From Cyclobacteriaceae bacterium (lineage in GTDB: Bacteria > Bacteroidota > Bacteroidia > Cytophagales > Cyclobacteriaceae): a stretch of DNA of 64,000 nt. The position numbers and the translations under genes were made by a program. How positions within the stretch are numbered: the first letter of the stretch is position 1; every line of letters starts with the position of its first letter. Positions 29,173 through 45,644 of this stretch are shown in pieces. The notes beneath the pieces were generated by a model. That model saw only the letters and a program-made list of their open reading frames with translations, ran no database searches and had not been told where the DNA came from. The DNA is taken from NCBI GenBank assembly GCA_020436085.1, contig JAGQYM010000004.1, positions 62,001 to 126,000 on the forward strand. The letters are read 5' to 3'.

Positions 29173-29186
29173 GTGACGGAAGTCAC
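29173..29186. promoter_or_regulatory. CRP/FNR-like dyad GTGAC-GGAA-GTCAC upstream of trxA
   Basis: This is a perfect 5+5 inverted repeat with a four-base spacer. Its twin (13 of 14 bases identical) is at 45262-45275. The dyad centre is 29.5 bases before a near-consensus -7 element at 29209, the class II activator position. TGAC-N4-GTCA half-sites are recognised by several CRP/FNR-superfamily regulators; the regulator itself is not in the window. Confidence 0.6.
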
Positions 29187-29208
29187 AGTTCTTTTCCACT
29201 CTTATGTC

Positions 29209-29216
29209 GATCTTTG
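29209..29216 (+). promoter_or_regulatory. Candidate -7 element (GATCTTTG) for trxA
   Basis: It differs from TAnnTTTG at the first base only. No TTG is present at -33, which fits an activator-dependent promoter. Transcription would start near 29222, downstream of the ATG at 29204 and 15 bases before the GTG at 29237. Confidence 0.5.
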
Positions 29217-29236
29217 TGTTTAAAATAGTACACAAA

Positions 29237-29542
29237 GTGGCTGAAAGGAAGACCTTCAACGATTTGATCAATGACGATAAACCTGTCCTAGTAGATTTCT
29301 ACGCAGATTGGTGTGGCCCATGTAAAATGATGGCGCCTGTTCTTCAGGAGTTTTCCAGTGAGATGACCGGAAAGGTGAAAGTTATCAAAGTAGACGTTGA
29401 CAGGAATCCAACCGCGGCCATGAACTACCAAATACAAGGGGTTCCCACACTTATTCTTTTCAAAAAAGGGCAAGTCATTTGGCGACAATCCGGAGTCGTG
29501 CCTGCTCACCAACTACGTTCGGTGGTGAGCAGTCACATCTAG
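29237..29542 (+). CDS. trxA: Thioredoxin
   Basis: The preferred start is the GTG at 29237, giving 101 residues starting MAERKTFNDLINDDKP. The thioredoxin fold carries the W-C26-G-P-C29-K active site and the cis-Pro segment GVPTLILFKKG, so it is a cytoplasmic disulfide reductant. The reading frame extends to an ATG at 29204, but that adds a non-family N-terminus (MSIFVFKIVHK) and lies upstream of the predicted transcription start. The gene converges on the terC gene. A probable CRP/FNR-type site controls it. Confidence 0.92.
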   Translation: MAERKTFNDLINDDKPVLVDFYADWCGPCKMMAPVLQEFSSEMTGKVKVIKVDVDRNPTAAMNYQIQGVPTLILFKKGQVIWRQSGVVPAHQLRSVVSSHI

Positions 29543-29558
29543 GCATTCCGTCAACCTG

Positions 29559-30500
29559 TTAATCTTTCGCTCCACTTGGCGCAAAAGTATCCTCATTGGA
29601 TTTCAAAACGATGGATGCTAACACAGCGACAGATAGTGTCATCACAATGAACGCAAGAGATATCTCTACCGGAATCTTATAGATATCTGACAAACACATT
29701 TTTATGCCCACAAAAACGAGAATCACCGAAAGGCCATACTTCAAGTAGGCGAAGTACTTCTCTATCCCCGACAAAGCAAAATACAGAGACCTCAATCCCA
29801 AAATCGCGAACACATTGGACGTGTAAACGATGAAAGTGTCGTCTGTTACTGCCAGGATTGCAGGAATAGAGTCCACTGCGAAAACCAAATCGGTCGCTTC
29901 AATTACCAGAACAACCAGAAATAGTGGTGTGCCCCAAATAAGATTATCTCTCCTTACAAAAAATGAATCGTTCTCAAAGTTGGGAGTGATTCGAAAAACA
30001 CGCCTTGCGAACCGCACCACTGGGTTTTTCTCCAGGTCTGGTTTCGAATCCTTCCCAAAAATTATTTTTATACCTGTGCCAATCAAAAAAAGACCAAATA
30101 GGTAAATCAGCCAGTGAAATCGGTGAATCAATTCTACTCCGGAGAAAATAAAAATTACTCTCATCACCAACGCACCAAGTATTCCCCAAAACAAAACTTT
30201 GTGCTGATATTGTCTGGGTACATTGAAAAATGAGAAGATCAACACCATCACGAAGATGTTATCCACGCTGAGCGATTTTTCAATGACGTAACCAGTCAAA
30301 AATTCAAACGCGCTCCGTTCACCAAAGTGATAATAAACAAACACGTTGAACAGGAAGGCCATCATCACCCAAACCCCTGTCCATGTGAGTGCTTCTTTGA
30401 CAGACACCTCGTGAGATTTTCGATGAAAGATGCCCAAATCCACGGCAAGCATGATCAGCACGAAGGTGTTGAAAGCTGCCCAAAGTAATGTCTGATTCAT
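29559..30500 (-). CDS. TerC/Alx family integral membrane protein
   Basis: The 313-residue protein has about nine membrane helices and TerC hallmarks: GYVIEKSLSVDNIFVMVLIF near residue 69, FWGILGALVMRVIFIFSG, and EATDLVFAVDSIPAILAVTDD near 203, with the conserved acidic residues inside the membrane. Alx/TerC proteins export manganese or other metals and are also linked to tellurite resistance and metalation of exported proteins. Its ATG overlaps the stop of the small upstream gene (ATGA, 30497-30500), so the two are coupled. Confidence 0.92.
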   Translation of the reverse strand: MNQTLLWAAFNTFVLIMLAVDLGIFHRKSHEVSVKEALTWTGVWVMMAFLFNVFVYYHFGERSAFEFLTGYVIEKSLSVDNIFVMVLIFSFFNVPRQYQHKVLFWGILGALVMRVIFIFSGVELIHRFHWLIYLFGLFLIGTGIKIIFGKDSKPDLEKNPVVRFARRVFRITPNFENDSFFVRRDNLIWGTPLFLVVLVIEATDLVFAVDSIPAILAVTDDTFIVYTSNVFAILGLRSLYFALSGIEKYFAYLKYGLSVILVFVGIKMCLSDIYKIPVEISLAFIVMTLSVAVLASIVLKSNEDTFAPSGAKD

Positions 30501-30703
30501 TTACTTGTTCGATTTGTATTCCATTTATTGTCTCTCACATACGCTGGCAGGATTTTATTTTTTCGGAGCCAGAATTTCAGTTCGCGTATTTCATTTTCAC
30601 TAAGCCAGTTTTTTGATTTTCTGTATTCTTTAAAAAATATTCTTCTATCAAATGACACTTTACTTAATATCAGCTTTACATATTCTAACATGGGCGTTTT
30701 CAT
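30497..30703 (-). CDS. Small basic protein coupled to TerC (unknown function)
   Basis: The 68-residue protein starts MKTPMLEYVKLILSKVSFDR and is rich in Lys, Arg and aromatic residues, with no membrane segment; it is probably helical. I recall similar short proteins with this MKTPMLEYVK start in other Bacteroidota, but could not check. It ends in a four-base overlap with terC, so it is translated with it. No function is assigned. Confidence 0.65.
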   Translation of the reverse strand: MKTPMLEYVKLILSKVSFDRRIFFKEYRKSKNWLSENEIRELKFWLRKNKILPAYVRDNKWNTNRTSK

Positions 30704-30827
30704 ACGATCATGATTTTAATCGATTGGTAATAAGAAATTATTTGATGAATCATAGCTCAATGCTTATCAACACTGCGCGTTGAGGGGTAGCCGACAAGTC
30801 CTCAGATCTGCTCCCCAGGAAATCCTA

Positions 30828-31124
30828 TCAAATGAGGAATGACCTGAAAAGAATATACCTCTGGGTAGTAGGCGCAGCAGAATCGCTGACATCAAGTAAG
30901 CTTGATCTCGTGGGTTGAATCCGGAACTGATGATTGAGGGAGTAAGCAACCTTAGGATCGTGACTAATTCGTTTTACTCTTACGTCAAGAACCCTATTTT
31001 CTTCAATGGATACCTCTTCAGCAGGGATTTCTTGCTGGACGGTAGGAATTAGTGCCGCGCAGGAATCTCCAACTCCAATTGAAAGAGCTATTAAAAGGAA
31101 GGTTGCCCGAGTCAATACCAACAT
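30828..31124 (-). CDS. Small exported protein of unknown function
   Basis: The 98-residue reading frame has an N-terminal hydrophobic export signal (LTRATFLLIALSIGVGDSCAA) followed by a charged, soluble part. No family is recognised. The ATG at 31124 is immediately preceded by a copy of the ATAGTATTACT motif that also lies at the tetR promoter, so the gene may be controlled by that regulator. The C-terminus past about residue 80 looks low in conservation-like features, and an overlapping frame at 30767-30949 exists, so a frameshifted or decaying gene is possible. The 124 bases beyond it to the small TerC partner hold nothing recognisable. Confidence 0.4.
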   Translation of the reverse strand: MLVLTRATFLLIALSIGVGDSCAALIPTVQQEIPAEEVSIEENRVLDVRVKRISHDPKVAYSLNHQFRIQPTRSSLLDVSDSAAPTTQRYILFRSFLI

Positions 31125-31125
31125 A

Positions 31126-31138
31126 ATAGTATTACTTT
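31126..31138. promoter_or_regulatory. Second copy of the probable TetR operator (ATAGTATTACTTT)
   Basis: It shares 11 consecutive bases (ATAGTATTACT) with the palindrome at 31307-31319 and lies directly upstream of the ATG of the small exported protein. A further dyad, CAATGTAAT (31146-31154) with ATTACACTG (31167-31175), one mismatch, lies in the same 219-base divergent region. Confidence 0.45.
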
Positions 31139-31306
31139 TCTAATTCAATGTAATGCTATGAACGTTATTACACTGAAATTGTTGCCCAGGATCAATTTTC
31201 GGCAGGTAAAATAGACCATTATGATGTTGTTTTTCAGAGAATTACGAGCAAAATAGTCAAAAAATAAGTCTAACTATCAAACAATATTATTCTACTAGTG
31301 TTTATG

Positions 31307-31319
31307 ATAGTATTACTAT
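31307..31319. promoter_or_regulatory. Probable TetR operator: 13-base palindrome ATAGTA-T-TACTAT
   Basis: A perfect palindrome ends one base before the -7 element at 31320-31327 of the tetR promoter, a position where a bound repressor would block RNA polymerase. It probably mediates autoregulation of the TetR-ABC-HlyD-TolC operon. Confidence 0.6.
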
Positions 31320-31327
31320 TATATTTG
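31320..31327 (+). promoter_or_regulatory. -7 element (TATATTTG) of the tetR-export operon
   Basis: This is an exact TAnnTTTG match 17 bases before the tetR ATG. No clear TTG is seen at -33. The leader would be about 11 bases. Confidence 0.55.
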
Positions 31328-31343
31328 TGGAAATATTCAGACC

Positions 31344-32018
31344 ATGGCAGTTCTAAGCTTTCAGTTGAACAACCACCTTTTTGTTAGGGATCCCCAGCAT
31401 ACGCAGTTGGGGCAAAACATTATTAGTAAGAGCGTGGAGATGATAGACCGTTTAGGTTTTGAACAATTCACTTTTAAAAAATTGGCAGAGGAAATCGAGT
31501 CTACCGAGGCGTCTGTATACCGCTATTTCGAAAACAAGCACAGATTGCTCCTATATCTGGTGGCCTGGTATTGGAGCTGGATTGAATACAGAATTGACCT
31601 GGCTACCAACGCAAGTCAGCCAGCAGAAGAGAGGCTGAAGACTGCGATTGACGTAATTGTTGAGGAAAAGAAATTCGATCCCTCCTTTGCTTTCGTTGAT
31701 GAGGTAGCACTTCATCGCATCGTTGTGTCAGAGCTAGACAAAACTTATTTGACAAAATGGGTAGACAAGGATAACCAGGAAGGGTTGTTTGGCGGATTCA
31801 AGTCTTTGTGCAAAAAAATTGCTGGCATCGTCACAGAAATCAACCCGAAATACCCTTATCCAAATTCCCTGATCAGTACCGTTCTGCTTGCCGCCAAGCA
31901 ACAAGCATTTTTTTCTGTTCATCTGCCTTCACTTACCAACGTATCCCAAGACACAAACGGAGCGGAGCAGATTCACAGTTTCATCAAACGGTTGGTGTTT
32001 GACACAATTAAATCTTAA
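31344..32018 (+). CDS. TetR/AcrR family transcriptional regulator
   Basis: The 224-residue protein has a TetR DNA-binding domain at about residues 20-66 (IISKSVEMIDRLGFEQFTFKK, split for length, then LAEEIESTEASVYRYFENKHRLL with the typical YRYF recognition helix) and a helical ligand domain. It starts an operon with ABC, HlyD-like and TolC-like genes; the ABC gene begins 6 bases after its stop. The palindrome at its promoter suggests autorepression relieved by a ligand, possibly the exported compound. Confidence 0.9.
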   Translation: MAVLSFQLNNHLFVRDPQHTQLGQNIISKSVEMIDRLGFEQFTFKKLAEEIESTEASVYRYFENKHRLLLYLVAWYWSWIEYRIDLATNASQPAEERLKTAIDVIVEEKKFDPSFAFVDEVALHRIVVSELDKTYLTKWVDKDNQEGLFGGFKSLCKKIAGIVTEINPKYPYPNSLISTVLLAAKQQAFFSVHLPSLTNVSQDTNGAEQIHSFIKRLVFDTIKS

Positions 32019-32024
32019 GTACAA

Positions 32025-34199
32025 ATGCTAAGTACGGATCAACTCCTGAGAATTCTTCAAGAAGCGGCATTGCTATTGAAACATGATATCGGTGTGGCCG
32101 AGTTGAGAGGTCGTGACTTATCCAACCGTGACTATAACGCTGATGAGCTGGATGAATTCAAGAGAGATTTAGTTGAAACCGGTAACAATGTGAGAATACT
32201 CATGCTGGAGTATTCGCTGGAAACTGCTGACTTCAAGAAATTTCTGAACGAGCTTGAGTTCCCGGTATTGATTTTCAGACATCGCAAGGAGGACAACAAA
32301 ATTCAACCTGAAATCCTTCATCGAACGAGCAACAAGATTCGAAAACTCGTAGTTGAAGAGGACAAGACGATTGAGATTAGCTACTCTCCTGACGATTTCG
32401 ATATGGAAGGAAGTGAAATCACTTTCCTTGCCATTACTGAATATGATCATCTCGTAAGTGACTCAGAGTTTAGTCAAACAATTGACAAACCTATTTCTCC
32501 AGTGCGCAGATTGCTTAAGCTATTACGCGCTGAAAAGAGAGATATCTACTTCGTATTTTTCTACGCGATCATCGTGGGATTGATCAGTTTGGTGATTCCT
32601 CTTGGTATACAAACAACAACCGAGCTGATCTCAGGAGGTGTATTCTTCAGCTCAATTTACTTGCTGATTGGTCTGATTATCGTTGGTGTTCTCTTTGGTG
32701 GTATTCTTCAAATTTTTCAGCTCAGCATTGTCGAGCACTTGCAGAGGAGGATATTTACGAAAGCAGCCTATGAATTCGCCTTCAGGCTCCCGAGGATTAA
32801 GAACGAATCACTAACCGGGAAATATGCGCCCGAGTTAGTCAATCGATTCTTCGATGTACTCACACTTCAGAAAGGACTGCCCAAGCTGCTTATTGATCTT
32901 TCAGCTGCCACTATCCAAATTTTGTTCGGCCTTTTACTGATCTCGTTGTATCACCCCTTCTTCGTGTTCTTTGGTATTTTCTTGCTTACCACACTCGTAT
33001 CCATTTTCTACTTCACAGGGCCCAAGGGGCTGCAAACTTCCATTGAAGAATCCAAATACAAATACAAGGTAGTCTACTGGCTTCAGGAATTGGGCCGGGC
33101 TTTGAATTCATTCAAGGTTACGGGCAACTCTAATCTACCTATTCGAAAAACAGACTTCAACCTCAATAAATATTTGAAGTATAGAAAGAGTCATTTTGGG
33201 GTATTGGTGCTCCAGTACTCGTATATCGTAATTTTTAAAACAGGGATAACGGCAGCCTTGCTTGTATTGGGAGCCATGCTTGTGATCGACAGACAGATTA
33301 CGCTAGGCCAATTCGTTGCTGCTGAAGTCGTGATCATCCTTATCCTGAATTCGGTAGAAAAAGTAATCACCTATATGGATGTGGTATACGATATGCTGAC
33401 GGCTGTAGATAAGATTGCAAACGTTACGGATCTTCCCCTCGAAAAAAATGGAGGTGTGGATTTTCGCAAGACTCCCGTGCGCCTTCCATTCGCAGTTGAT
33501 ATCTCGAACGTACGCTATAGATATGCAGAAGGAAACGACTATATCTTGAAAGGCGTGAGCTTCCATGTGAAACCCGGAGAACGCATTTGCATTTCTGGCC
33601 CCGGTGGTGGTGGCAAAACTACTTTAACTCAGCTCCTTTCAGGACTTCAAGGTGACTTTGAAGGATCTATCAAAATAAACCAATACTCCATTCGCGACCT
33701 GGATCTCACTAATCTCCGCGACCACCTCGCCAAAAACATTTCGATGGAGGATATTTTCGATGGTTCCGTCTTAGAAAATGTAATTGTGGGCAAACCACAC
33801 CTCACCGTGCAGGATGCCATTGAGGCGATGCAAAAAACCAGTGTATACGATTGGGCTGTGGAGCAAGCCGAAGGACTGAACACACACCTCGTAAGCGGAG
33901 GGAAAGGGCTTCCTAGATCAGTAGTTCTCAAATTGATTTTGGCGCGATGCATTGCAAAGAAGCCGAGCCTGATCGTTTTGAATGATTATTTCTCCAGCCT
34001 CTCAAGAAAGGACAAAATTCAGTTGATCAACATGCTTACTGATCATAAAAATAAGTGGACACTGATCGCTGTTTCGAATGATCCTTTGATCATGGAAGCT
34101 TGTGATCGGGTAATTGTCCTTGAAGACGGCCTGAAACGTGTAGAGGGGACTTACAACGAGTTGTTGAAAAACAATATGTTGAACGAATTCATTGCATAG
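32025..34199 (+). CDS. Type I secretion-like ABC exporter with degenerate ATPase motifs
   Basis: The 724-residue protein has three parts: an N-terminal domain (1-165) in the place of the C39-like domain of HlyB but with no cysteine, so no peptidase; a six-helix ABC exporter membrane domain (about 175-440); and a C-terminal nucleotide-binding domain. Walker A is intact (GPGGGGKTT, K531). Other motifs are changed: the Q-loop position is Met574 (ISMED), the signature is VSGGK (623-627) in place of LSGGQ, Walker B ends L-N653-D654 in place of D-E, and the H-loop is S684-N685 in place of His. It may bind ATP without normal hydrolysis, or represent a specialised family. It is in an operon with MFP and TolC genes. 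Confidence 0.85.
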   Translation: MLSTDQLLRILQEAALLLKHDIGVAELRGRDLSNRDYNADELDEFKRDLVETGNNVRILMLEYSLETADFKKFLNELEFPVLIFRHRKEDNKIQPEILHRTSNKIRKLVVEEDKTIEISYSPDDFDMEGSEITFLAITEYDHLVSDSEFSQTIDKPISPVRRLLKLLRAEKRDIYFVFFYAIIVGLISLVIPLGIQTTTELISGGVFFSSIYLLIGLIIVGVLFGGILQIFQLSIVEHLQRRIFTKAAYEFAFRLPRIKNESLTGKYAPELVNRFFDVLTLQKGLPKLLIDLSAATIQILFGLLLISLYHPFFVFFGIFLLTTLVSIFYFTGPKGLQTSIEESKYKYKVVYWLQELGRALNSFKVTGNSNLPIRKTDFNLNKYLKYRKSHFGVLVLQYSYIVIFKTGITAALLVLGAMLVIDRQITLGQFVAAEVVIILILNSVEKVITYMDVVYDMLTAVDKIANVTDLPLEKNGGVDFRKTPVRLPFAVDISNVRYRYAEGNDYILKGVSFHVKPGERICISGPGGGGKTTLTQLLSGLQGDFEGSIKINQYSIRDLDLTNLRDHLAKNISMEDIFDGSVLENVIVGKPHLTVQDAIEAMQKTSVYDWAVEQAEGLNTHLVSGGKGLPRSVVLKLILARCIAKKPSLIVLNDYFSSLSRKDKIQLINMLTDHKNKWTLIAVSNDPLIMEACDRVIVLEDGLKRVEGTYNELLKNNMLNEFIA

Positions 34200-34201
34200 A
34201 C

Positions 34202-35497
34202 ATGCTGAAAATATCAAAGGAAAGTATTGATGACAGACTGCCAAAGGACAGGCTTTACTCGCTTCGAACTTTGCAAACCCCGAGGGCTGGTAGAGTTCTT
34301 GCAAGATGGCTCTTCGCGTTGGGATTAATTTTTTTCGTGTTGCTCTTTCTGCCATGGCAACAGAACATCAGAGGCCGCGGTGAGGTAACTGCTCTGAACC
34401 CGGCTCATCGCCCGCAAACCGTGCAGACAGCGATTGCTGGCAGGATACAACAATGGCGCGTGAGGGAAGGTCAACTCGTGAGCAAAGGTGACACCATACT
34501 TTCTCTGGCTGAGATCAAAGAAAAATACTTTGATCCCCAACTGTTGTTGCGCTTGAGCCAACAGATCGATGCAAAGGAAAAGAGTATTCAATCCAAGGAT
34601 CAAAAAGCCAACTCTCTGAAAGATCAAATAAGTGCGCTGAGACTACAACAAAAGGTGAAGTATGAACAGGCACAAGCTAAACTAGAGGCACAGCGAGTAA
34701 GATTTCAAAATGCGGAAAACCAATTTCAACGCAACAAAAGCCTCTTTGAAGCTGGCAACATCCCGCTTACCAAGTTTCAAGACTTCGAGTACAAGTACCA
34801 GGGAAGTAAGGCAGATTACAACAACGCAGAAATTGAACTTGATCAGGTGAACGCTGAATACCTGGACAAAATCAACAAAGCTGAGTCTGAACTCAATAAC
34901 ACGCTTGCCGAACTTTTTGACTCACAAGGATCACTGGCCAAGCTCAAAAACGAATATGCCAACATGAGCATTCGAAACGAACAATACCAGGTCATTGCTC
35001 CGCAGGATGGAATTGTTGTTCGCGCGTTGAAAGCTGGAATTGGTGAAACGATCAAAGAAGGTGAGGCGGTATGCACGATAATGCCAGAGTCATCTGACTT
35101 GGCGGTAGCCATGTATGTAAAGGCGATGGACGTCCCTCTGATTTCAAAAGGGAGGAGAGTACGAATTCAGTTTGACGGCTGGCCCGCATTGCAGTTTTCA
35201 GGTTGGCCCAGTGTTTCGGTAGGAACATTTGGTGGCGTAGTTGAGGTCATCGACTATGTCAATTCAAAACCCGGAGAGTTTAGAATATTGGTAACGCCTG
35301 ATCAGACTGACGAAAAATGGCCTCCACAACTTCGTATGGGTTCAGGAACCAAAGGATGGGTGATGCTCAACGATGTTCCGGTGTGGTTTGAAATCTGGCG
35401 ACAACTGAATGGCTTCCCTGCGAGTGTGTATCAGGCACCGGAAGAACCGGTTGCTGATAAAAAAGGAAGTAGTGCCGGAGAAGAAGATGAGAAATAA
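34202..35497 (+). CDS. HlyD-family membrane fusion protein
   Basis: The 431-residue protein has one membrane helix (about residues 36-55), a lipoyl-type half (NPAHRPQTVQTAIAGRIQQW), a long coiled coil (about 105-250) and the second barrel/lipoyl half (VIAPQDGIVVRALKAGIGE, IQFDGWPALQFSGWP). It should span the periplasm between the ABC protein and the TolC-like channel. It starts 2 bases after the ABC stop. A short acidic/basic C-terminal tail is unusual but harmless. Its stop overlaps the start of the TolC gene by 11 bases. Confidence 0.92.
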   Translation: MLKISKESIDDRLPKDRLYSLRTLQTPRAGRVLARWLFALGLIFFVLLFLPWQQNIRGRGEVTALNPAHRPQTVQTAIAGRIQQWRVREGQLVSKGDTILSLAEIKEKYFDPQLLLRLSQQIDAKEKSIQSKDQKANSLKDQISALRLQQKVKYEQAQAKLEAQRVRFQNAENQFQRNKSLFEAGNIPLTKFQDFEYKYQGSKADYNNAEIELDQVNAEYLDKINKAESELNNTLAELFDSQGSLAKLKNEYANMSIRNEQYQVIAPQDGIVVRALKAGIGETIKEGEAVCTIMPESSDLAVAMYVKAMDVPLISKGRRVRIQFDGWPALQFSGWPSVSVGTFGGVVEVIDYVNSKPGEFRILVTPDQTDEKWPPQLRMGSGTKGWVMLNDVPVWFEIWRQLNGFPASVYQAPEEPVADKKGSSAGEEDEK

Positions 35498-36953
35498 CAA
35501 ATCGATGAAGCGTAGCCTATCTGCTTTTTCATTTGTCCTATTGCTGGTGCTATCTGCCAGGCCCATCCATGCACAAAAAAGCCTGGACGAGGTCTTCTTA
35601 TTACCGGATACCGTTTCTTCTTTCACGCTGGATGAGTTCTATGGCATCATCCTGAAATATCACCCGGTAGTAAAACAGGCCGGCCTACTCAGCACTATGG
35701 CACAGCAGCAACTGCGCCTCGCCCGGGGATCCTTTGACCCGAAATTAAATGTATCGCTTGACCGGAAAGATTTTCAGGACAAAACCTACTACGACAGATT
35801 GAATGGATATCTGGAGTTCCCAAGTTGGTTTCCGGTGAATCCCAAGATAGGATTGGAGCAAAACCGGGGAGAATTTCTTGACGCCTCCGAAACGATTCCC
35901 GGCAATCAACTTTGGTATGCAGGGGTCTCTGTGCCCATTGGCCGCGGATTGTTCACCGATGAACGAAGAGCGATGGTAAAACAAGCTCAACTGATGCAAA
36001 CCATGGCTGAAGCTGAGAAAATAAAACTGATCAACAAAGTATTGTTATCGGCTGCTAAAGACTACTGGGAGTGGTACAAAGCGTATTACAATTTCAGGCT
36101 ACTTGACAGGGCTTCTGCCATTGCGTCAGAATTGTTTTCAAGGGTAAAACTAGATCAGCAATTTGGAGAGGCAGCTGTCATTGATACCGTTCAGGCAAAA
36201 ATAACACTTCAATCACGATTAGTCGAAAGGCAGGAAGCTCTCCTTCTATTTCAAAACACAGGAGTATTTCTATCCAACTACCTTTGGAGTGAAGAAAGTA
36301 TCCCCCTCCAATTGTCGAGCGCTGTAGCACCAGTGCTTTCCTCTGATGATCTTTCGCTACTCGACCTACAAACTGCCAGCACGTTGGCGGAACAGGCGAG
36401 ACAAAACCATCCCGAGCTTATTAAGATCAGAACAAAAATTGACCAGCTTGAGGTTGACAGACGATTGGCACAGGAGTTTTTGAAACCACGGCTCGATTTG
36501 TCCTATTCGATGCTGTCGTTACCTGATCCCCTGGAGGTAAACCCGCAACGTGATTACAAATTCGGAGTTGATTTTTCTATACCCGTATTCCTAAGAAAAG
36601 AAAGATCAAAGCTTGCATTGACAAAATTGAAGGTACAAGACGCTCAATTCATGCAAAGCCAGACGGAACGTGAGATCTTCAATGAAATAAATACAACATT
36701 TAATACCCTCGTAAACTCCAACACTATCCTTTCTCAGCTCCGAGAAATGGTAAACCTGTATGACAGAATGCTAGAGGCTGAGTTACTCAATCTGGAATAT
36801 GGGGAAAGTGACTTGTTTAAGATCAACATCCAGCAGGAGAAACTCATCCAGTCGCAAACCAAGCTGGTGAAACTGATGGCCGAATATCAAAAGCAGAAAG
36901 CGACCTTATATTGGGCAGCTGGTCTGACAAATCTGAACGTTACGGTAGACTAG
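35487..36953 (+). CDS. TolC-family outer membrane efflux protein
   Basis: The chosen start is the ATG at 35487 (488 residues), overlapping the HlyD stop; an ATG at 35505 is an alternative. A signal peptide ends PIHAQ. The body is the repeated helical and beta-strand structure of TolC-like channels (LRLARGSFDPKLNVSL, then DYKFGVDFSIPVFLRKER, then QSQTKLVKLMAEYQKQKATL). It completes a tripartite exporter with the ABC and HlyD-like proteins. Its stop abuts the stop of the converging DUF4249 gene with no spacer. Confidence 0.9.
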   Translation: MRNNKSMKRSLSAFSFVLLLVLSARPIHAQKSLDEVFLLPDTVSSFTLDEFYGIILKYHPVVKQAGLLSTMAQQQLRLARGSFDPKLNVSLDRKDFQDKTYYDRLNGYLEFPSWFPVNPKIGLEQNRGEFLDASETIPGNQLWYAGVSVPIGRGLFTDERRAMVKQAQLMQTMAEAEKIKLINKVLLSAAKDYWEWYKAYYNFRLLDRASAIASELFSRVKLDQQFGEAAVIDTVQAKITLQSRLVERQEALLLFQNTGVFLSNYLWSEESIPLQLSSAVAPVLSSDDLSLLDLQTASTLAEQARQNHPELIKIRTKIDQLEVDRRLAQEFLKPRLDLSYSMLSLPDPLEVNPQRDYKFGVDFSIPVFLRKERSKLALTKLKVQDAQFMQSQTEREIFNEINTTFNTLVNSNTILSQLREMVNLYDRMLEAELLNLEYGESDLFKINIQQEKLIQSQTKLVKLMAEYQKQKATLYWAAGLTNLNVTVD

Positions 36954-38111: not shown

Positions 38112-38151
38112 TTTTCAAGCTCCGATTCAATATCAAAACCAAGCAAGGTCG

Positions 38152-39312
38152 CTATTCCCACTCTGGCGGAGGATAGGCCAGTCCATTAGGGAAAGCAGCC
38201 AGTCTTTCACAGTCCGACCACAAAACACAATTTTCTTTAGGCTCGATGTCGTAAGGTGGCACTACCACTTTAGCATCATCAGCGGTTAGAAACATTACCT
38301 TGGTTCGGATCGCTGCCGCATAAAAGATTCCCATCACGGTATTATTACTATTAGTTGAATAAAGATTAGTAGTGGTTCTTCCAAAAGCTGGTTGAAACAA
38401 ACTAGAAGAACCTTCTTTCTGATCCTTAAACACCTGCCAAAAATCATAGGCCGCAGGAGATAAACTCATTTGTTCAACTTTGACCATGTATTTTTTCTTG
38501 CCAAAAGTCCATTGATCAAATGAGACATAGCCAACCTCAATATTAGCAAATGTACCATCCGTAACCACGACATCTTCACTTAGTGTAGGCTTTTTCTCTT
38601 GTTGGGTCACCCAACAGATACAACAGGTACACTCTCCAACATATTCGAGTGATCCGCCTGCAAACCGGTTTCCGGGTACAGCCAAATTGTAAACCCATCC
38701 GCTGCATGGGGGAGGATCTGGCGGTGGGGGCGTTGAACCACAGTTGGCATCATTCAGTCTTCTGAACTGCGGGAATGTTTCAAGAACATAGGTCCCGGAA
38801 AACCGCCATCTCAGATGCGCACCTGGATTGTTACCTCTTGTATTTGAAAATATACGGAACCCATACTCTGGCGGACCTTTTAATGGTTTGTATGCCTCCC
38901 ATTCATAGTAAAGAGAATCAATTGAGCCAACCGGATTCATTTCATCAAGTTGAGACTCATAGTCTGTACCATCAAGAAGTTTAATTCTTACTCCATATTT
39001 CCTTCCGGGCCGCCCTCTGATTCCATCTGGAGCTGTTTCATAGAGGCCGTCCTCCTTATAGCTGAGAACTTCTGTATTTCCCAAGTCGTCAAATATCAAG
39101 ACTTCTTTTGCAAAAACCGGCTTTGCATTGTTTAGGATCGCATCGCTAACTGAAGCACGGAAAAGACGTACTTGATATGGCCCGGGTGCATCTGTGATCA
39201 GTCCATCTACTACTAGTGTTCCCTCCTCCTGGGCAACACCATCAATGGCTAGTCGATCCACACACGCAGCGACTAGTAGCATTACCAAAAAAAGAAGCGA
39301 AGCTTTCTTCAT
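38152..39312 (-). CDS. DUF4249 family lipoprotein (copy 2)
   Basis: The 386-residue protein is a close paralogue of the downstream copy along its whole length, with a better lipobox (MLLVAACVDRL), the same DAPGPYQVRLFR start, a proline-rich CGSTPPPPDPPPCSGW region, the Cys cluster ECTCCICW, the QKEGSSSLFQPAFGRT block and the C-terminal NCVLWSDC. It is the first of the tandem pair; both are on the minus strand, 40 bases apart. It probably sits on the outer membrane. No substrate or receptor partner can be named. Confidence 0.85.
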   Translation of the reverse strand: MKKASLLFLVMLLVAACVDRLAIDGVAQEEGTLVVDGLITDAPGPYQVRLFRASVSDAILNNAKPVFAKEVLIFDDLGNTEVLSYKEDGLYETAPDGIRGRPGRKYGVRIKLLDGTDYESQLDEMNPVGSIDSLYYEWEAYKPLKGPPEYGFRIFSNTRGNNPGAHLRWRFSGTYVLETFPQFRRLNDANCGSTPPPPDPPPCSGWVYNLAVPGNRFAGGSLEYVGECTCCICWVTQQEKKPTLSEDVVVTDGTFANIEVGYVSFDQWTFGKKKYMVKVEQMSLSPAAYDFWQVFKDQKEGSSSLFQPAFGRTTTNLYSTNSNNTVMGIFYAAAIRTKVMFLTADDAKVVVPPYDIEPKENCVLWSDCERLAAFPNGLAYPPPEWE

Positions 39313-39390
39313 GAGTACGTGAAGTTACCCAAAATCAATGCCTTCAGTATCCCCCTTACTTGGGTATAGCCAGAGCTTAGAATTTTCTAA

Positions 39391-40821
39391 TTACTCGCCA
39401 GTAATAGATTTGATCACCTGTTCGGTAACACGTTCAGCAGAAGCTAATGCACCATTAATGGTACCGGCATCTCCCGAAACATCAGTGGCCTCCCCGGCAA
39501 AAAATAATTTGTCACCTACAGGCACACCTAGCGCCTCCCGATCGGAAAGACTACCAGATGCCAAGGGATAAGAGTAACCTCCTTGAATATATTCTTCTTT
39601 TCCCCAGTCTAGGATTAATGACAAAACCTGGTCAGTATTTAAATCTCTTCTTACAAACTGTGTAGCCTGACCTCCATAAATCGTATCCAGTTCCGCAAGG
39701 ATCGTATTGACCATATCGGCACCCTGTGCTGAGAGTTCAACGGCCTTGGGCCCATTAATGGTGATGGACATCGTTTGATTGAATTCACTTCTACCCACGC
39801 CTGCACTTATACATGTAGGGAATGATGATCCACCCCAAATAAATCCAGATGTCTCTCCCCAAAAATTTTTCTTAAAGTCAATAACTACTTTGATGCTATG
39901 GTCCATTCCAAGGTTTCCCATGGCCCCGCTCATTGCACTTGGCAAGCCAGGGGAAAATGAAATCAAATTTTTCTTAAGTATTGACAGTGGCACTGTCACA
40001 ATCACTTTGCTCGCCTCGATTTGTCCACCATTAGCATCCGTGATTACAATTGGGTTGCTTGTGTAGTTAATCGAAGTCACCGGTGTATTCAGTTGAATCA
40101 ACTCTCTCACCTGATCAAACCTAAAGATGAGAAAGTCCTGCATTGGATTTGTTTTCAGCGTGAAGCGTTTGCCATCGTGGGCACGTGTTTGCAACGCTTC
40201 GGCCACGCCTGCGATACCAAGATTCGCATTGGATGATCCATAAAAATTTCCAATCTGTGAATTCACAAGATTAGAAACCCTAGCCGGCAGACCCGCAGCG
40301 GCTGTCGCAGCAGTGACAGCTGGACCGGAATAGCCCATAAGGTTATCTACAAAATTCTGAGCACTTGCAAAATCTCCATCGGACTCCCATTCGTCTCTTG
40401 TTTTGGCAAGGTTGTCGAGTATGAATTGATCTGATGAAACAGATTCAAGGTCATTAGTCGCTACTCTAAAGTTTTGAATATTGGTTCCCCAAATAGAATC
40501 CGTACCATACACGACCTCAGCTCCCAACTCTACAGGAAAATCAGCAGCGGAAATATTGATCAAATCAGGTTGATTGCGCAACGATCGAATTCTTCCACCC
40601 ACCTGACTGCCGGCTTCAAGTATCTTGACATTGATTCCTTTAGCATTCAGAATATCTGCGGCATACAGTCCTGCAGCGCCAGCACCGATGATCACCACGT
40701 TTCCATCGAAAGGAATTTCTGGTCCCGGATCGTCCTTACTACACGATGTCAACAAATGTGGCATTACCCACCCTGCAGACAGGCCCAATCCCAATTGCTT
40801 TAATGCTTTTCTTCTCTTCAC
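39391..40821 (-). CDS. Exported FAD-dependent flavin monoamine oxidase family protein
   Basis: The 476-residue protein starts (GTG) with a twin-arginine-like signal M-K-R-R-K-A-L-K-Q-L-G leading to LLTSC, a lipobox. The FAD-binding GAGAAG (46-51) in VVIIGAGAAGLYAADIL, EAGSQVGGRIRSLR and the C-terminal FFAGEATDVSGDAGTINGAL are the amine oxidase signature. It probably folds with FAD in the cytoplasm and is exported by Tat, then lipidated. The substrate could be a polyamine, monoamine or amino acid. It is divergent from the NadR-like gene (128-base gap). Confidence 0.85.
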   Translation of the reverse strand: MKRRKALKQLGLGLSAGWVMPHLLTSCSKDDPGPEIPFDGNVVIIGAGAAGLYAADILNAKGINVKILEAGSQVGGRIRSLRNQPDLINISAADFPVELGAEVVYGTDSIWGTNIQNFRVATNDLESVSSDQFILDNLAKTRDEWESDGDFASAQNFVDNLMGYSGPAVTAATAAAGLPARVSNLVNSQIGNFYGSSNANLGIAGVAEALQTRAHDGKRFTLKTNPMQDFLIFRFDQVRELIQLNTPVTSINYTSNPIVITDANGGQIEASKVIVTVPLSILKKNLISFSPGLPSAMSGAMGNLGMDHSIKVVIDFKKNFWGETSGFIWGGSSFPTCISAGVGRSEFNQTMSITINGPKAVELSAQGADMVNTILAELDTIYGGQATQFVRRDLNTDQVLSLILDWGKEEYIQGGYSYPLASGSLSDREALGVPVGDKLFFAGEATDVSGDAGTINGALASAERVTEQVIKSITGE

Positions 40822-40949
40822 TCTTCTTACTTTGGCTGAAAGATAAATATATAGCAGGATTTATTGAAAATTGAGGCAGTAATGCTGTATTTGAGCTGAA
40901 ATCGAGAGCTAATCTTATACTCTGATAAAACGGCCTAAAACCCAGATGA

Positions 40950-41504
40950 ATGCGTGCGGTTGAAAGAAAATCTCATATCCACAAAGTAGCTATTGTCGGA
41001 CCCGAATGTACTGGCAAAACGGACCTATCATCATTTTTGGCAGAACACTATAGGACTGCCTGGGTGAAAGAGTACGCCAGGGCCTATCTTGACAATTTGA
41101 ATCGGCCATATGACGAAACGGATCTGCTCAAAATAGCGCATGGCCAACTACGAATGGAAGATGAATGGAGTTCTGAGGCAAATAGAGTCTTGATTTGTGA
41201 TACCAATCTTATCGTCATCAAAATCTGGAGTGAATTCAAATATGGTAGATGCGATCAAGAGATAATCGACCTTATGCAATCCAGAACTTACGACCTAACG
41301 CTGTTAACCTTTATTGACATTCCCTGGCAAGATGATCCTCAGCGTGAACATCCTGAAGAAAGACAAAAACTTTGGGACAGATACGTGGCAGAACTGCAAA
41401 ATCAAAATCTCCCGTTCGCTGAAGTGAAGGGAGAAAGGGATCAACGAAGATTAACAGCAACCGCAGCAATCGATAAGCTTTTAAGCAAAAATGTAGATGG
41501 CTGA
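40950..41504 (+). CDS. AAA/NadR-like ribosylnicotinamide kinase-type ATPase
   Basis: The 184-residue protein has Walker A GPECTGKT (residues 17-24), KEYARAYLDNL near 40-50 and a CDTNLIVIKIWSEFKYG stretch near 90, matching the C-terminal kinase domain of NadR, which phosphorylates nicotinamide riboside. The N-terminal NMN adenylyltransferase domain of full-length NadR is missing, so it is a stand-alone kinase type. The gene overlaps the MFS transporter start by 8 bases. A vitamin salvage role is plausible but the transporter beside it is not a PnuC. Confidence 0.75.
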   Translation: MRAVERKSHIHKVAIVGPECTGKTDLSSFLAEHYRTAWVKEYARAYLDNLNRPYDETDLLKIAHGQLRMEDEWSSEANRVLICDTNLIVIKIWSEFKYGRCDQEIIDLMQSRTYDLTLLTFIDIPWQDDPQREHPEERQKLWDRYVAELQNQNLPFAEVKGERDQRRLTATAAIDKLLSKNVDG

Positions 41505-42744
41505 AAAAGTTGGTCCTTACGCGGCCTTCGGCATACGTGACTTCCGTCAATTTATTCTCGCTCGCCAATGCGCAACTTTAGCAATTCACATTCAAGCAAC
41601 AATCGTTGGATGGCAGTTATATGACATCACTCATGATCCTCTTGCGCTTGGATTAATTGGTCTGACGGAGGCTGTTCCCGCTATTACAGTCTCGTTATAC
41701 GCAGGACACATCGCAGACGTAGTTCCAAGAAAGAACATTATTCTCACAACCATCAGCGTGTTATTTCTTTGTGCGTCTTCACTACTCTTCTTCACGCTGA
41801 AGCCCGGTGCTTTCATACTGGCATTTGGTGCCTTCCCGATTTACATCGTAATATTTATCAGTGGGCTGGCTCGAGGATTTTTATCTCCCGCCAACTTCTC
41901 CTTTATGCCGCAGTTGATTCCCAGACATTTGTATGCCAATGCAATTTCACTAAACACAACATTTTGGCTGATTGCCTCGATTGTAGGCCCTATGTTGGCC
42001 GGCTTCATTTATGCGTTGTTAGGAATTTCTGCTACCTATTTTGCGGATGTCATTCTGTTGGTAGGCGCACTCCTTTTCTACTTCTCTATTCCCGGCCGTC
42101 CTGTTCCGCCAGCTTCTGACGAGCAAGGTGTTCGACAAAAAATAAAATCAGGTTTGAAGTTTGTGATGAAGACGCAGGTAATCCTGGGAGCAATTAGTCT
42201 GGATATGTTTGCGGTCTTGTTTGGAGGAGCTGTGGCTTTACTTCCAATTTTTGCAGCCGAAATACTAAAGGTAGGCCCACAAGGACTTGGAATGCTTCGA
42301 TCAGCCCCTGCCATCGGAGCAGTCGTCATGGCATTCTACGTCACACACAATCCCATCAGGCGCAATGCAGGCAAGGTAATGTTGGTTTGTGTCGCAGGTT
42401 TTGGCGCAAGCATGATCGGCTTTGGGCTCTCTACCAGTTTTATCTTTTCACTACTGATGCTCATGCTAAGTGGAATGTTTGACAGCATCAGCATGATCAT
42501 TCGAAGCACCCTTATTCACACGCGCACTCCTGAAAACATGAAGGGCCGAGTATCCGCAGTCAATAGCATCTTTGTCGGCTCGTCAAATGAAATCGGAGCT
42601 TTCGAATCAGGTGCTACTGCTAAGCTGATGGGCGCAGTCGCGTCAGTTGTCTTTGGTGGTTTCATGACTTTGGTCGTTGTGGGTGTCACTGGTTGGAAAG
42701 CCAAAAAACTCAGAAATCTTGATCAGCTCGAAGGCGATCATTGA
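41497..42744 (+). CDS. MFS transporter (EntS-like)
   Basis: The 415-residue protein has 12 predicted membrane helices and the MFS loop motif GHIADVVPRKN after helix 2. FRQFILARQCATLAIHIQATIVGWQLYD and its layout resemble the EntS/MFS_3 group of exporters. Start ATG at 41497 overlaps the stop of the kinase-like gene. The substrate is unknown. Confidence 0.85.
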   Translation: MAEKVGPYAAFGIRDFRQFILARQCATLAIHIQATIVGWQLYDITHDPLALGLIGLTEAVPAITVSLYAGHIADVVPRKNIILTTISVLFLCASSLLFFTLKPGAFILAFGAFPIYIVIFISGLARGFLSPANFSFMPQLIPRHLYANAISLNTTFWLIASIVGPMLAGFIYALLGISATYFADVILLVGALLFYFSIPGRPVPPASDEQGVRQKIKSGLKFVMKTQVILGAISLDMFAVLFGGAVALLPIFAAEILKVGPQGLGMLRSAPAIGAVVMAFYVTHNPIRRNAGKVMLVCVAGFGASMIGFGLSTSFIFSLLMLMLSGMFDSISMIIRSTLIHTRTPENMKGRVSAVNSIFVGSSNEIGAFESGATAKLMGAVASVVFGGFMTLVVVGVTGWKAKKLRNLDQLEGDH

Positions 42745-42835
42745 CAGACCTCAACCCCCTTCCACTTATCACTTTCTGTTTTTATTTCCTTGTTTATAGT
42801 GGTACTTTTTGATACCGAACCTAAAATTCCAATAC

Positions 42836-45232
42836 ATGAAATCGCTGTTATTTGCCCTGGTACTCACTCCCTCCATTGTCTTTTCACAAAATACGCTCAA
42901 TGTTCCCGGACTGAAGGAAAGCGTGGAAGTGATTAGAGATAACTACGGTGTCAATCACATCTATGCAAAAAATCAACACGACCTTTTCTTCGCACAAGGA
43001 TATTGTGCCGCAAAGGATCGTCTTTTCCAGTTTGAGTTGTGGAGGAGACAGGCAACCGGTACTGTTGCCGAACTGCTAGGGTCACGGGAAATAAAGCGCG
43101 ACATCGGAACTCGACTTTTTCGTTTCAGAGGCAATTTGAAGCAAGAGATGAACCATTACCACAATGATGGTGAAGAGATTATAACAGCATATACAGAAGG
43201 GGTGAATGCGTACATCGCAGAGGCAGAAAAGAACCCAAGTCTCCTTCCTATAGAATTCAAACTACTCGATACCAAACCTCAAAAGTGGACGCCCGATGTT
43301 GTCATCTCCAGACATCAAGGCTTGGTGATGAACCTGACTGAAGAAATTCATGTGGGTCGCATGGTGGCAAAAATGGGAGCGGAAAAAGTTCGCGAGTTAG
43401 GCAACTATGGTCCTGGAGAGCCAGTTCTCGAACTCGATCCAGCCATTAACGGTGATAGACTCTCAGATGACGTAATTGGTGTTTACAATGCCTTCAGGAG
43501 GCCTGTGGTATTTGCACCAGAAGATGTTGTCGCCTCAGCAAATACAAACTTTGATGAATATCGATACCTCGTTCAATTGGATGAGGACGCACGGCAAAGT
43601 GTGCTTGATAAAGAGAGGCAAGTAATCGGAAGTAATAACTGGATTGTGAGCGGTCGCTATTCGCAAAGCGGGTACCCGATGCTGGCCAACGATCCACATC
43701 GCGCCATCTCTGCACCCTCACTTCGCTACATGGTTCATTTGAATGCACCCGGCTGGAATGTTGTTGGAGGTGGTGAACCTTCTATTCCAGGAATCTCCAT
43801 CGGTCACAACGATTACGGTGCGTGGGGTCTTACTGTTTTCGAAATCGATAGTGAAGATCTGTATGTCTACGAATTAAATCCTGCCAACAAAAATCAATAC
43901 AAGTATAAAGGTGGGTGGGAAGACATGCGTGTCGAAAAAGATGTGATCAAAGTAAAAGGTGGGCCTGACGTAGATGTTGAACATCGTTATACCAGACACG
44001 GACCGGTCACTTTCATGGATGAAAAGAATAACATCGCTTATGCTGTGAGAGCAGGATGGATGGAAATTGGGGGTTCACCTTATCTGGCTAGTTTGAGAAT
44101 GGACCAAGCCACCACGTGGGAAGAGTTCAGAGAGGCATGTTCATACAGTCACCTTCCAGGGGAAAATATGATTTGGGCTGACAAGAAAGGAAACATTGGT
44201 TGGCAAGTAGTAGGGATTGCACCGATGCGCAAGAACTGGAGTGGCATGGTACCCGTACCGGGCGATGGACGATATGAATGGGCTGGTTATCTCCCTATCA
44301 AATCGCTGCCACATATTTTCAATCCAGACAAAGGGTTTTGGGCTACGGCCAATGAGAATCTCGTACCTCAAAATTATGAACATCGTAACGCGGTCGGCTG
44401 GAGTTGGGCAGAGAGCTATCGGGCCGATCGTATCAACGAAGTATTGGCAAAGAATCAAAAGTTCTCCATCGGTGATATGATGAGATTGCAGGCCGACTAT
44501 CTTTCAATCCCCGCGCGCACGCTTATCCCTCTCCTTTCCGAACTTAAGTCCAGTGATAAGAACACAGAAACGGCCCGTCAAATGTTGACGAAATGGGATT
44601 TTATAATGGATAAAAATTCTGTAGAAGCAGCGATCTACAAGGCATGGGAAGATAGGTTAGAGCAAAACTGCAAAACACTGTTTGTGCCCGAAAATGGTAA
44701 AGACCTCGTGCGCTACATTCCTCTGAGCAACGTGATTGATTGGATACTTACGGCACGGCCTGAATTTGGTGCGAATTCTGTTGTGGGTCGTGATGAGTTT
44801 CTCATCAAATCACTGAAAGATGCTATCGGAGACTTAACTAAGAGGCTTGGATCAGACATGCGGAAGTGGCAATACGGCCAGCCTTCTTATCATCACGTGC
44901 TAATCAAGCACCCGATGAGTAATGCCGTTGATGCCGCTACAAGAAAGAAAATCGAAGTCGGTCCTCTGCCACGCGGAGGCTACGGTTCCACTCCGGGCAT
45001 GACTGGCGATGGTGATAATCAAACTCATGGTGCTACTTTCAGAATTGTAGCTGACGTAGAGGATTGGGACAAAACGATGTTTACCAATTCACCTGGTCAA
45101 AGTGGTGATCCGGAAAGCAAGTTTTATGGAAATCTATTCCCGCTTTGGGCCAACGACAAACATTTCCCGGTCTACTTCAGCCGAAACTTGGTGGAGAAAT
45201 CAGCCTACGAGAAGACTGTTCTAAAGCCTTGA
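42836..45232 (+). CDS. Penicillin acylase family protein (Ntn-hydrolase)
   Basis: With the ATG at 42836 the protein has 798 residues and a signal peptide (MKSLLFALVLTPSIVFS). The alpha part starts VEVIRDNYGVNHIYAKN, and the beta part begins at the autocatalytic nucleophile Ser266 in IGSNNWIVSG. HGPVTF and GATFRIVADVEDWD near the C-terminus are also family-typical. The proenzyme cleaves itself before Ser266; mature enzymes hydrolyse amide bonds such as those of acyl-homoserine lactones or beta-lactams. The substrate here is unknown. No signs of truncation. Confidence 0.92.
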   Translation: MKSLLFALVLTPSIVFSQNTLNVPGLKESVEVIRDNYGVNHIYAKNQHDLFFAQGYCAAKDRLFQFELWRRQATGTVAELLGSREIKRDIGTRLFRFRGNLKQEMNHYHNDGEEIITAYTEGVNAYIAEAEKNPSLLPIEFKLLDTKPQKWTPDVVISRHQGLVMNLTEEIHVGRMVAKMGAEKVRELGNYGPGEPVLELDPAINGDRLSDDVIGVYNAFRRPVVFAPEDVVASANTNFDEYRYLVQLDEDARQSVLDKERQVIGSNNWIVSGRYSQSGYPMLANDPHRAISAPSLRYMVHLNAPGWNVVGGGEPSIPGISIGHNDYGAWGLTVFEIDSEDLYVYELNPANKNQYKYKGGWEDMRVEKDVIKVKGGPDVDVEHRYTRHGPVTFMDEKNNIAYAVRAGWMEIGGSPYLASLRMDQATTWEEFREACSYSHLPGENMIWADKKGNIGWQVVGIAPMRKNWSGMVPVPGDGRYEWAGYLPIKSLPHIFNPDKGFWATANENLVPQNYEHRNAVGWSWAESYRADRINEVLAKNQKFSIGDMMRLQADYLSIPARTLIPLLSELKSSDKNTETARQMLTKWDFIMDKNSVEAAIYKAWEDRLEQNCKTLFVPENGKDLVRYIPLSNVIDWILTARPEFGANSVVGRDEFLIKSLKDAIGDLTKRLGSDMRKWQYGQPSYHHVLIKHPMSNAVDAATRKKIEVGPLPRGGYGSTPGMTGDGDNQTHGATFRIVADVEDWDKTMFTNSPGQSGDPESKFYGNLFPLWANDKHFPVYFSRNLVEKSAYEKTVLKP

Positions 45233-45261
45233 GGAAAGATTTTTAAAGATCAATCCGTAAT

Positions 45262-45275
45262 GTGACGAAAGTCAC
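45262..45275. promoter_or_regulatory. CRP/FNR-like dyad GTGAC-GAAA-GTCAC
   Basis: It is identical to the site at 29173-29186 except for one spacer base. Its centre lies 29.5 bases before the -7 element at 45298, exactly as upstream of trxA, and the first start codon follows at 45322. Confidence 0.65.
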
Positions 45276-45297
45276 TGTTTGTTTTGTGGCATTGAAA

Positions 45298-45305
45298 TAT
45301 ACTTG
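45298..45305 (+). promoter_or_regulatory. Candidate -7 element (TATACTTG)
   Basis: It is one base off TAnnTTTG, with no TTG at -33. Transcription would start near 45311, about 11 bases before the ATG of the 27-residue peptide. Confidence 0.5.
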
Positions 45306-45321
45306 TTGCAACATTGAACAG

Positions 45322-45405
45322 ATGAGTAACAAAGTCCTGAAACTGCTGGTTATTTGTGTGATCTGCATTTCGCTGGTCTATGGGCTTGTCTGGCTTTTTC
45401 AATGA
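45322..45405 (+). CDS. Predicted 27-residue single-helix membrane peptide
   Basis: ATG at 45322 and TGA at 45403 frame a peptide that begins MSNKVLKLL and ends YGLVWLFQ. The core is one hydrophobic helix with two Cys (VICVIC), so it fits a small inner-membrane peptide. It lies between the CRP/FNR-like promoter and the DUF2892 gene, 26 bases before it, on the same strand. Small size makes chance a real possibility, and no homologue is recognised; position right after the predicted transcription start supports it. Confidence 0.45.
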   Translation: MSNKVLKLLVICVICISLVYGLVWLFQ

Positions 45406-45431: not shown

Positions 45432-45644
45432 ATGAAAAAGAACATGGGAAATGCTGACAGAATGATCAGAATTATTCTTGCTGTTGTGTTTGCTGCATTG
45501 TATTTCACCGGCACTGTACAGGGTACGCTCGGCCTCGTGTTAGTGATTTTAGGAGGAGTATTTCTGTTAACCAGCTTTGTAAGCTTTTGTCCTCTTTACG
45601 CGATTGTAGGGCTGAACACTTGCCCCACAAAAAAGACTACTTGA
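45432..45644 (+). CDS. DUF2892 family small membrane protein (YgaP-like membrane domain)
   Basis: The 70-residue protein has MKKNMGNADRMIRIILAVVF, then two membrane helices (about 11-50) and a C-terminal CPLYAIVGLNTC pair of cysteines. This is the DUF2892 unit that also forms the membrane part of YgaP-type rhodaneses. Family members are linked to sulfur and thiol metabolism, but the stand-alone form has no proven role. A CRP/FNR-like site upstream and a terminator downstream define a short transcript with the 27-residue peptide. Confidence 0.85.
   Translation: MKKNMGNADRMIRIILAVVFAALYFTGTVQGTLGLVLVILGGVFLLTSFVSFCPLYAIVGLNTCPTKKTT

Follow-up and report, generated by a model that had tools for sequence, protein, structure and literature searches.

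Two promoter regions in a 64-kb stretch of a Cyclobacteriaceae genome (assembly GCA_020436085.1, contig JAGQYM010000004.1; hereafter the window) carry exact GTGAC-N4-GTCAC dyads, beginning at positions 29173 and 45262. Comparison of sequences within this genome and across its order leads us to conclude that the two are very probably class II operators of one Crp/Fnr activator serving a dispersed sulfide/persulfide detoxification regulon. The genes found behind operators of the same genome are a fusion protein of the persulfide dioxygenase (PDO) type and a rhodanese on contig C112, a thioredoxin and a YgaP-like protein in the window and, behind weaker sites, genes on contigs C146 and C158.

A preliminary description of this DNA had reported that the dyads at 29173-29186 and 45262-45275 share 13 of 14 bases and that each dyad centre lies 29.5 bases before the first base of a -7 element. 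Both statements are borne out, the gap from operator to -7 element being 22 nucleotides in each case, as is the single mismatch of GATCTTTG and of TATACTTG to TAnnTTTG. The claim that both promoters lack a -33 TTG holds for 29173, where no TTG lies between dyad and -7 element, and is doubtful for 45262, where TTTG at 45278-45281, 3' of the operator, places a TTG 16 nucleotides before the TA of the -7 element; this promoter may have a weak -33 element. The proposed transcription starts, 29222 and 45311, are each one base off the 29221 and 45310 predicted from Flavobacterium psychrophilum promoters, in which TAnnTTTG occupies -12 to -5 (PMC9723704). Because the gap is 22 nucleotides, the same placement puts the dyad centre at a predicted -41.5. 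First-order Markov simulations (150 runs) gave 0.03 exact dyads per 64 kb, compared with the three found, and never produced the dyad, a gap of 22 and a -7 element with at most one mismatch together. Dyads with up to one mismatch, among them one at 41537, number four in the window against 1.12 expected from dinucleotide shuffles. The third exact dyad (Table 1) is judged a chance match outside the system.

We scanned the whole genome (G000; 4.42 Mb in 191 contigs) with the reversed pattern as control. Exact dyads are hardly commoner than the control (seven versus five), and dyads with up to one mismatch are rarer (75 versus 127); the dyad alone, not being enriched, was rejected as a signal. The signal is the dyad together with its spacing and context. 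The architecture described for the two window sites (dyad, gap 22 and -7 element, at most one mismatch overall) has exactly three matches in the genome and none in the control. The third match, on contig C112, lies between a Crp/Fnr gene and a metallo-beta-lactamase/rhodanese gene and starts 30 bases past the last base of the stop codon of the former. It precedes a 468-residue metallo-beta-lactamase/double-rhodanese protein, followed by a single-domain rhodanese. We label the 468-residue protein PDO-type from its domains; against the NCBIfam Blh equivalog it scores 45.7 bits, far under the cut-off of 625.

Weaker sites, with two or three mismatches, occur before the genes of a DUF6132 protein and of a further PDO-type protein (two sites, C146) and, on C158, before a TauE/SafE gene with two YeeE-like genes behind it. 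Because matches and controls are equal in number when up to three mismatches are allowed (47 versus 50), these candidates rest on their genes, and on the same count we dropped C109, C169 and every other site at this mismatch level. Three exact dyads without the architecture were not counted: one inside a dehydrogenase-like open reading frame (ORF) at L003, one at a contig edge (L023) and one amid intergenic overlapping motif repeats at L001. The L001 repeats, of GTGACAAAAGTCAC/AAAAGTCAC, span L001:1501-1523 and have no good -7 element at gap 22.

Across 291 genomes of the order, we identified 47 pairs of an exact dyad and an exact -7 element in 34 genomes at gaps of 8 to 38 nucleotides (31 allowed gaps), compared with 14 for the reversed control (a hand count). 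The gap is 22 in 35 of these pairs, 21 in four and 23 in three, and five other gaps occur once each. When one mismatch is allowed in the whole architecture, 94 of the 291 genomes match, versus 19 for the control (again counted by hand). The preference recurs in loci fetched by their regulator gene and not by the motif (80 named loci, the best 80 of at least 548, totalling 875,080 bases): an exact -7 element combined with a dyad of at most one mismatch gives 20 sites at gap 22, two at 21 and one at 23, the other 28 gaps being empty, and allowing one mismatch in the -7 element as well brings the counts to 32, three and two, with 13 more over the remaining gaps. The spacers of 95 distinct gap-22 sites show no strongly preferred base except G at the second position (54%), so distance more than sequence is kept in the spacer. 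The preliminary description would have been undermined by a motif as frequent inside genes as upstream of them; once the spacing is required, the counts favour it, since none of the 35 gap-22 sites lies in a long ORF, compared with five of the 12 at other gaps. Two gap-22 sites overlap opposite-strand frames, of 126 and 55 residues.

To assign targets, the ORFs downstream of the 47 exact pairs (from the first ATG, within 600 nucleotides) were matched to 15 reference proteins, and genes outside this set were judged by their first residues and, for ten proteins, by Pfam. At 25 of the 35 gap-22 sites the first gene is one of the reference set (PDO 9, TauE 8, YgaP-like membrane protein 6, rhodanese 1, regulator 1); elsewhere this holds for one site in 12, which has a gap of 23 and precedes a PDO-type gene. 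Among the remaining gap-22 sites, three precede 1-Cys peroxiredoxins (L164 by Pfam, L165 and L166 by first residues), one an OsmC protein and one a TlpA-like redoxin; others precede a transcript with a DoxX gene, a DUF983 gene and a TonB-plug protein. The gene next to one L105 site is without identification, and the L121 site has no gene in range. This last site (L121:6136) combines a perfect operator with a perfect -7 element and adjoins a Cas6b gene, with the regulator gene beyond it. At gap 21, two sites in one genus (L165:6898 and L185:3985) stand before a small ORF that is followed by cytochrome bd (CydA, by Pfam for L165), a possible extension of the regulon to a sulfide-tolerant oxidase. 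Another gap-21 site precedes the gene of a SoxA/TsdA-type cytochrome c, from which an SQR-like gene runs divergently. The sulfur/thiol hint that the preliminary description took from the two window genes was right, the targets including PDO, rhodanese, TauE/SafE, YeeE-like transport, thioredoxin, peroxiredoxin and YgaP-like proteins.

The cognate regulator, we strongly infer from these sequences, is the 207-residue Crp/Fnr protein encoded on C112 directly 5' of the PDO-type gene. It matches PF00027, PF13545 and PF00325 above cut-off (a cyclic-nucleotide (cNMP)-binding domain and a Crp-type helix-turn-helix), and the AlphaFold model of a protein 71% identical to it (L195; mean pLDDT 89.7) matches CRP structures. 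It scores 52.8 bits against the CRP equivalog NF008732, under the cut-off of 266. Among solved structures, a profile of its clade best matches a Crp/Fnr protein of Eubacterium rectale, PDB 3dv8 (123 bits, compared with about 70 for CRP and 29.5 for Porphyromonas gingivalis HcpR, 9day), which has a Cys at the aligned position of the invariant cysteine discussed below and differs in being annotated only as a putative regulator. The source organism of 3dv8 belongs to another phylum. Clade and site occur together: members (E at most 1e-25) are present in all 20 genomes picked for having at least two sites and in two of 25 picked for having none, 15 of these 25 coming from one genus so that the independent number is smaller. 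A reference gene lies near the regulator in 64 of the 80 named loci, or 59 if five thioredoxin-only loci are left out. Going by operator position and gene neighbourhood only, the clade appears to control PDO and rhodanese genes.

The recognition helix and the site covary. Strict sites are present at 15 of 26 loci whose regulators carry Arg-Glu at the two specificity positions of this helix versus five of 49 with Arg-Val (Fisher p 2e-5, too optimistic because the rows share ancestry), and perfect dyads at six of the 26 versus none of the 49; five of the 80 loci, including two that have a site, were dropped here as our filter found no regulator ORF. All five Arg-Val strict sites carry one GTAAC half, as do some at Arg-Glu loci. 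Another set of relatives gave strict sites at nine of 20 Arg-Glu loci, none of four Arg-Val loci and three of six unclassed by pattern. At the Arg-Val loci L207, L224, L243 and L273, GTAAC-N4-GTAAC, GTAGC or GTTGC stands at the same gap, and a strict GTGAC motif for all relatives was rejected because Arg-Val regulators show such GTAAC-type sites. This covariation fits the rule of Rodionov and colleagues that the amino acids at 180 and 181 track the half-site (PMC1274295). In 15 examined loci (Table 1) the operator starts one base before the regulator stop codon, which is therefore part of the next gene's operator; the stop is TAA at sites with a GTAAC half and TGA otherwise.

Taken together, the sharp spacing, the predicted -41.5 position, the adjoining regulator gene, the co-occurrence and the helix/site covariation strongly support, at the level of sequence, the earlier proposal of class II activation by a Crp/Fnr-superfamily protein. 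Position -41.5 is the classical class II position, and with the starts as predicted the Crp/Fnr dyad is centred near it.

What the regulator senses was approached through its cysteines, in an alignment of 136 clade members from 132 loci (79 of them named), with two weak matches and identical cores set aside. Cys74, in the numbering of the C112 protein, is present in all 136. There is no second cysteine in the aligned core of 72 members; in 47, one or two more lie close by, between six and nine residues further along (positions 80, 81 or 83 of the C112 protein, which itself has two cysteines). A conserved dithiol was rejected as a clade-wide feature, the protein's own second cysteine (Cys83) being kept in five of the 136. 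Of 16 cNMP-domain matches in the genome, Cys74 is found in the C112 regulator and in a second clade member on contig C44 (L043:6500-7132, 36% identical) and not in the other 14, of which 11 are informative since three (L012, L015 and L020) are cut long frames that align poorly. In the AlphaFold model of the L195 protein, Cys74 stands just before helix 77-84, which aligns with the helix of the phosphate-binding cassette of CRP. Most CRP cAMP-contact positions differ by eye in the alignment, and cAMP is unlikely as the ligand. FNR has four cluster-ligating cysteines and this clade one that is invariant; FNR-type Fe-S sensing is excluded because the single-cysteine members have too few.

A thiol at the start of a helix in the effector pocket would be a plausible target for persulfide or polysulfide. 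A precedent for such chemistry is the Crp of Acinetobacter baumannii, a mapped persulfidation target in cells (PMC7315123). Thioredoxin and peroxiredoxin, both among the regulon genes, are named as systems that remove persulfide modification (PMC9774590, section 6). In the mechanism that we propose, sulfide would be oxidised to persulfide, and persulfide or polysulfide would modify Cys74. The modified dimer would then bind GTGACN4GTCAC, substitute for the -33 element and contact RNA polymerase at promoters whose -7 element is imperfect.

Several observations weigh against this account. The -7 elements of the window promoters are imperfect. At ten of the 35 gap-22 sites no reference gene comes first downstream, and five of these (the third L105 site, L119, L121, L167 and L179) have no obvious thiol link. 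No strict site is present in 58 of the 80 named loci, compared with 22 that have one, and several relatives from the organism's own genus have degenerate sites only. The assignment to the C112 regulator is not unique because of the second clade member on C44. Only one cysteine is invariant, whereas two or three are described for CstR, SqrR/BigR and FisR (PMC9774590), and part of the clade may use a dithiol mechanism. The serine aligned with CRP Ser83 is kept in 135 of 136 members, and another ligand in the effector pocket is possible on the alignment.

Three other explanations were weighed. The same regulon and operators could respond to nitric oxide (NO), oxygen or another heme ligand, as HcpR, DNR and CooA do, with sulfur genes under control because sulfide chemistry needs an oxygen supply; we regard this as unlikely, though the site is close to the predicted HcpR2 motif GTAACnnnnGTTAC (PMC1274295). 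The two cytochrome bd sites at gap 21 also favour it, a point tempered by the sulfide induction of cytochrome bd in A. baumannii (PMC8148161). Among the genes that follow the 47 sites none was recognised as hcp, nor or hmp, with only part of these genes scanned and no search made for hcp. CooA has a Cys heme ligand in the corresponding region, which counts for a heme signal, but the clade profile is much further from P. gingivalis HcpR than from 3dv8 or CRP, and the 72 members with a single core cysteine leave no room for an FNR-type cluster. An oxygen or NO regulon, as raised in the preliminary description, is accordingly not favoured, the targets being mostly sulfide/persulfide genes and the regulator lacking the FNR-cluster cysteines.

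The operators might also be real and be served by another Crp/Fnr paralogue, such as the C44 member, with the C112 regulator merely adjoining one of them. The 16 cNMP-domain matches leave candidates for this, and the C44 protein shares the invariant cysteine, but 19 kb around its gene hold no site of this architecture, and in many genomes the site comes immediately after the gene orthologous to the C112 regulator and often overlaps the stop codon of that gene; we consider this explanation improbable. A one-mismatch dyad at C44:38351 was rejected, having no matching -7 element and no sulfur gene recognised from first residues. That the window sites are chance palindromes, two matching 14-mers with fortuitous -7 elements, would sit well with the lack of dyad enrichment in this genome, but is scarcely credible given the gap histogram, the target genes and the co-occurrence. 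For the set as a whole chance is already refuted, and a single site could still be inactive.

The proposed activator of sulfide/persulfide genes shares features with several known systems. With Escherichia coli CRP it has in common the Crp/Fnr fold, the half-site arrangement GTGA-N6-TCAC, the recognition-helix Arg and Glu and the -41.5 centre (predicted here); it differs in the Bacteroidota TAnnTTTG promoter, the pocket-region cysteine, the sulfur targets and most cAMP contacts, the serine being kept. HcpR1 and HcpR2 are Crp/Fnr proteins with motifs near this one (GTAACnnnnGTTAC or TTGACnnnnGTCAA; PMC545781, PMC1274295) in which the motif likewise correlates with these two recognition residues, but their core targets are hcp/frdX and nitrosative stress, and P. 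gingivalis HcpR is a distant relative. Another Crp/Fnr protein of P. gingivalis, PgRsp, binds heme (PMC6955866). BigR/SqrR, CstR and FisR respond to sulfide-derived species and control genes for PDO, rhodanese, TauE or YeeE/YedE (PMC9774590, PMC7315123, PMC5823870), and FisR is likewise an activator; these belong to the ArsR, CsoR or sigma-54-dependent Fis families and are described with two or three sensing cysteines, whereas the clade here consists of Crp/Fnr proteins with one invariant cysteine. A. baumannii Crp is a Crp-family protein persulfidated in cells, but it is a target identified by proteomics with a suspected effect on biofilm, and FisR and BigR run the sulfide operons there (PMC7315123). 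The yrk/nre-sqr-pdo cluster of Bacillus licheniformis has largely the same gene set (YrkH of PDO type, the rhodanese YrkF, the TauE protein YrkJ, the thioredoxin YdfQ, SQR and PDO) under the repressor YrkD and the two-component system NreBC (PMC9918477).

The persulfide sensors listed in section 6 of PMC9774590 (CstR, SqrR/BigR, PigS, FisR, OxyR, LasR and OhrR) include no Crp/Fnr protein, and the passages of PMC7315123, PMC12170894 and PMC8148161 name no Crp/Fnr regulator of sulfide/persulfide genes. In searches of open-licence papers we met neither such a regulator nor this motif for Bacteroidetes, nor a described sulfide-response regulator of Bacteroidota. The genes themselves are those familiar from known sulfide/persulfide systems, and against this literature the regulator clade, its operator and its function would be new.

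Table 1. Coordinates of operators, promoter elements and genes (window positions unless a locus is given).
Feature	Coordinates	Strand	Remarks
Operator 1, GTGACGGAAGTCAC	29173..29186	+	Exact GTGAC-N4-GTCAC dyad, centre 29179.5
Operator 2, GTGACGAAAGTCAC	45262..45275	+	Exact GTGAC-N4-GTCAC dyad, centre 45268.5
-7 element, GATCTTTG	29209..29216	+	22 nt 3' of operator 1; predicted +1 at 29221
-7 element, TATACTTG	45298..45305	+	22 nt 3' of operator 2; predicted +1 at 45310
Third exact dyad	14856..14869	+	Within an 838-residue ORF; no -7 element at gap 22
TauE/SafE-type gene	28379..29161	+	PF01925; just 5' of operator 1
Thioredoxin	29237..29542	+	Probable GTG start at 29237
Possible 27-residue ORF	45322..45405	+	Strongly hydrophobic; first in predicted transcript 2
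YgaP-like_TM membrane protein	45432..45644	+	PF11127 (DUF2892 of the preliminary description)
Candidate regulator, C112	L002:1544-2167	-	207-residue Crp/Fnr protein, directly 5' of the PDO-type gene
Operators overlapping the regulator stop codon	L195, L215, L235, L264, L045, L049, L050, L051, L053, L056, L057, L058, L061, L062, L067

The genes beside the window operators call for some comment. The thioredoxin frame matches PF00085 in its longer form and TIGR01068, above cut-off, from the GTG start; translated from there, it has an N-terminus similar to that of the site-associated thioredoxins in L122 and L159. The automatic ATG start at 29204 cannot serve if the promoter is right, because the predicted transcript begins at about 29221; the GTG is the likelier start. 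The TauE/SafE-type gene, before which no operator was found, is linked to the system by gene content. Behind operator 2, the 27-residue ORF begins 12 bases past the predicted transcript start, and a 47-residue frame containing it has no Pfam match; it may not be a gene. The YgaP-like_TM family that follows is the first downstream gene at six of the 35 gap-22 sites in other genomes. A window gene at 27645 was rejected as a nearby regulator, being a lytic-transglycolase/SPOR protein.

A wider reading, to which we give somewhat less than even credence, is that the regulon extends across the phylum, with this undescribed Crp/Fnr clade sensing persulfide via a single invariant pocket cysteine and activating from -41.5. 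Bacteroidota are abundant, and a regulator, an exactly spaced operator, a target list and a candidate sensing residue can now be proposed for their sulfide/persulfide genes. The sites also look like an extensive, conserved collection of class II promoters for the unusual RNA polymerase of Bacteroidota; such a collection would help in studying how an activator functions where no -33 element is present and in making sulfide reporters. If the proposal is true, these bacteria would have a dedicated sulfane-sulfur sensor in a protein family absent from the lists for this role.

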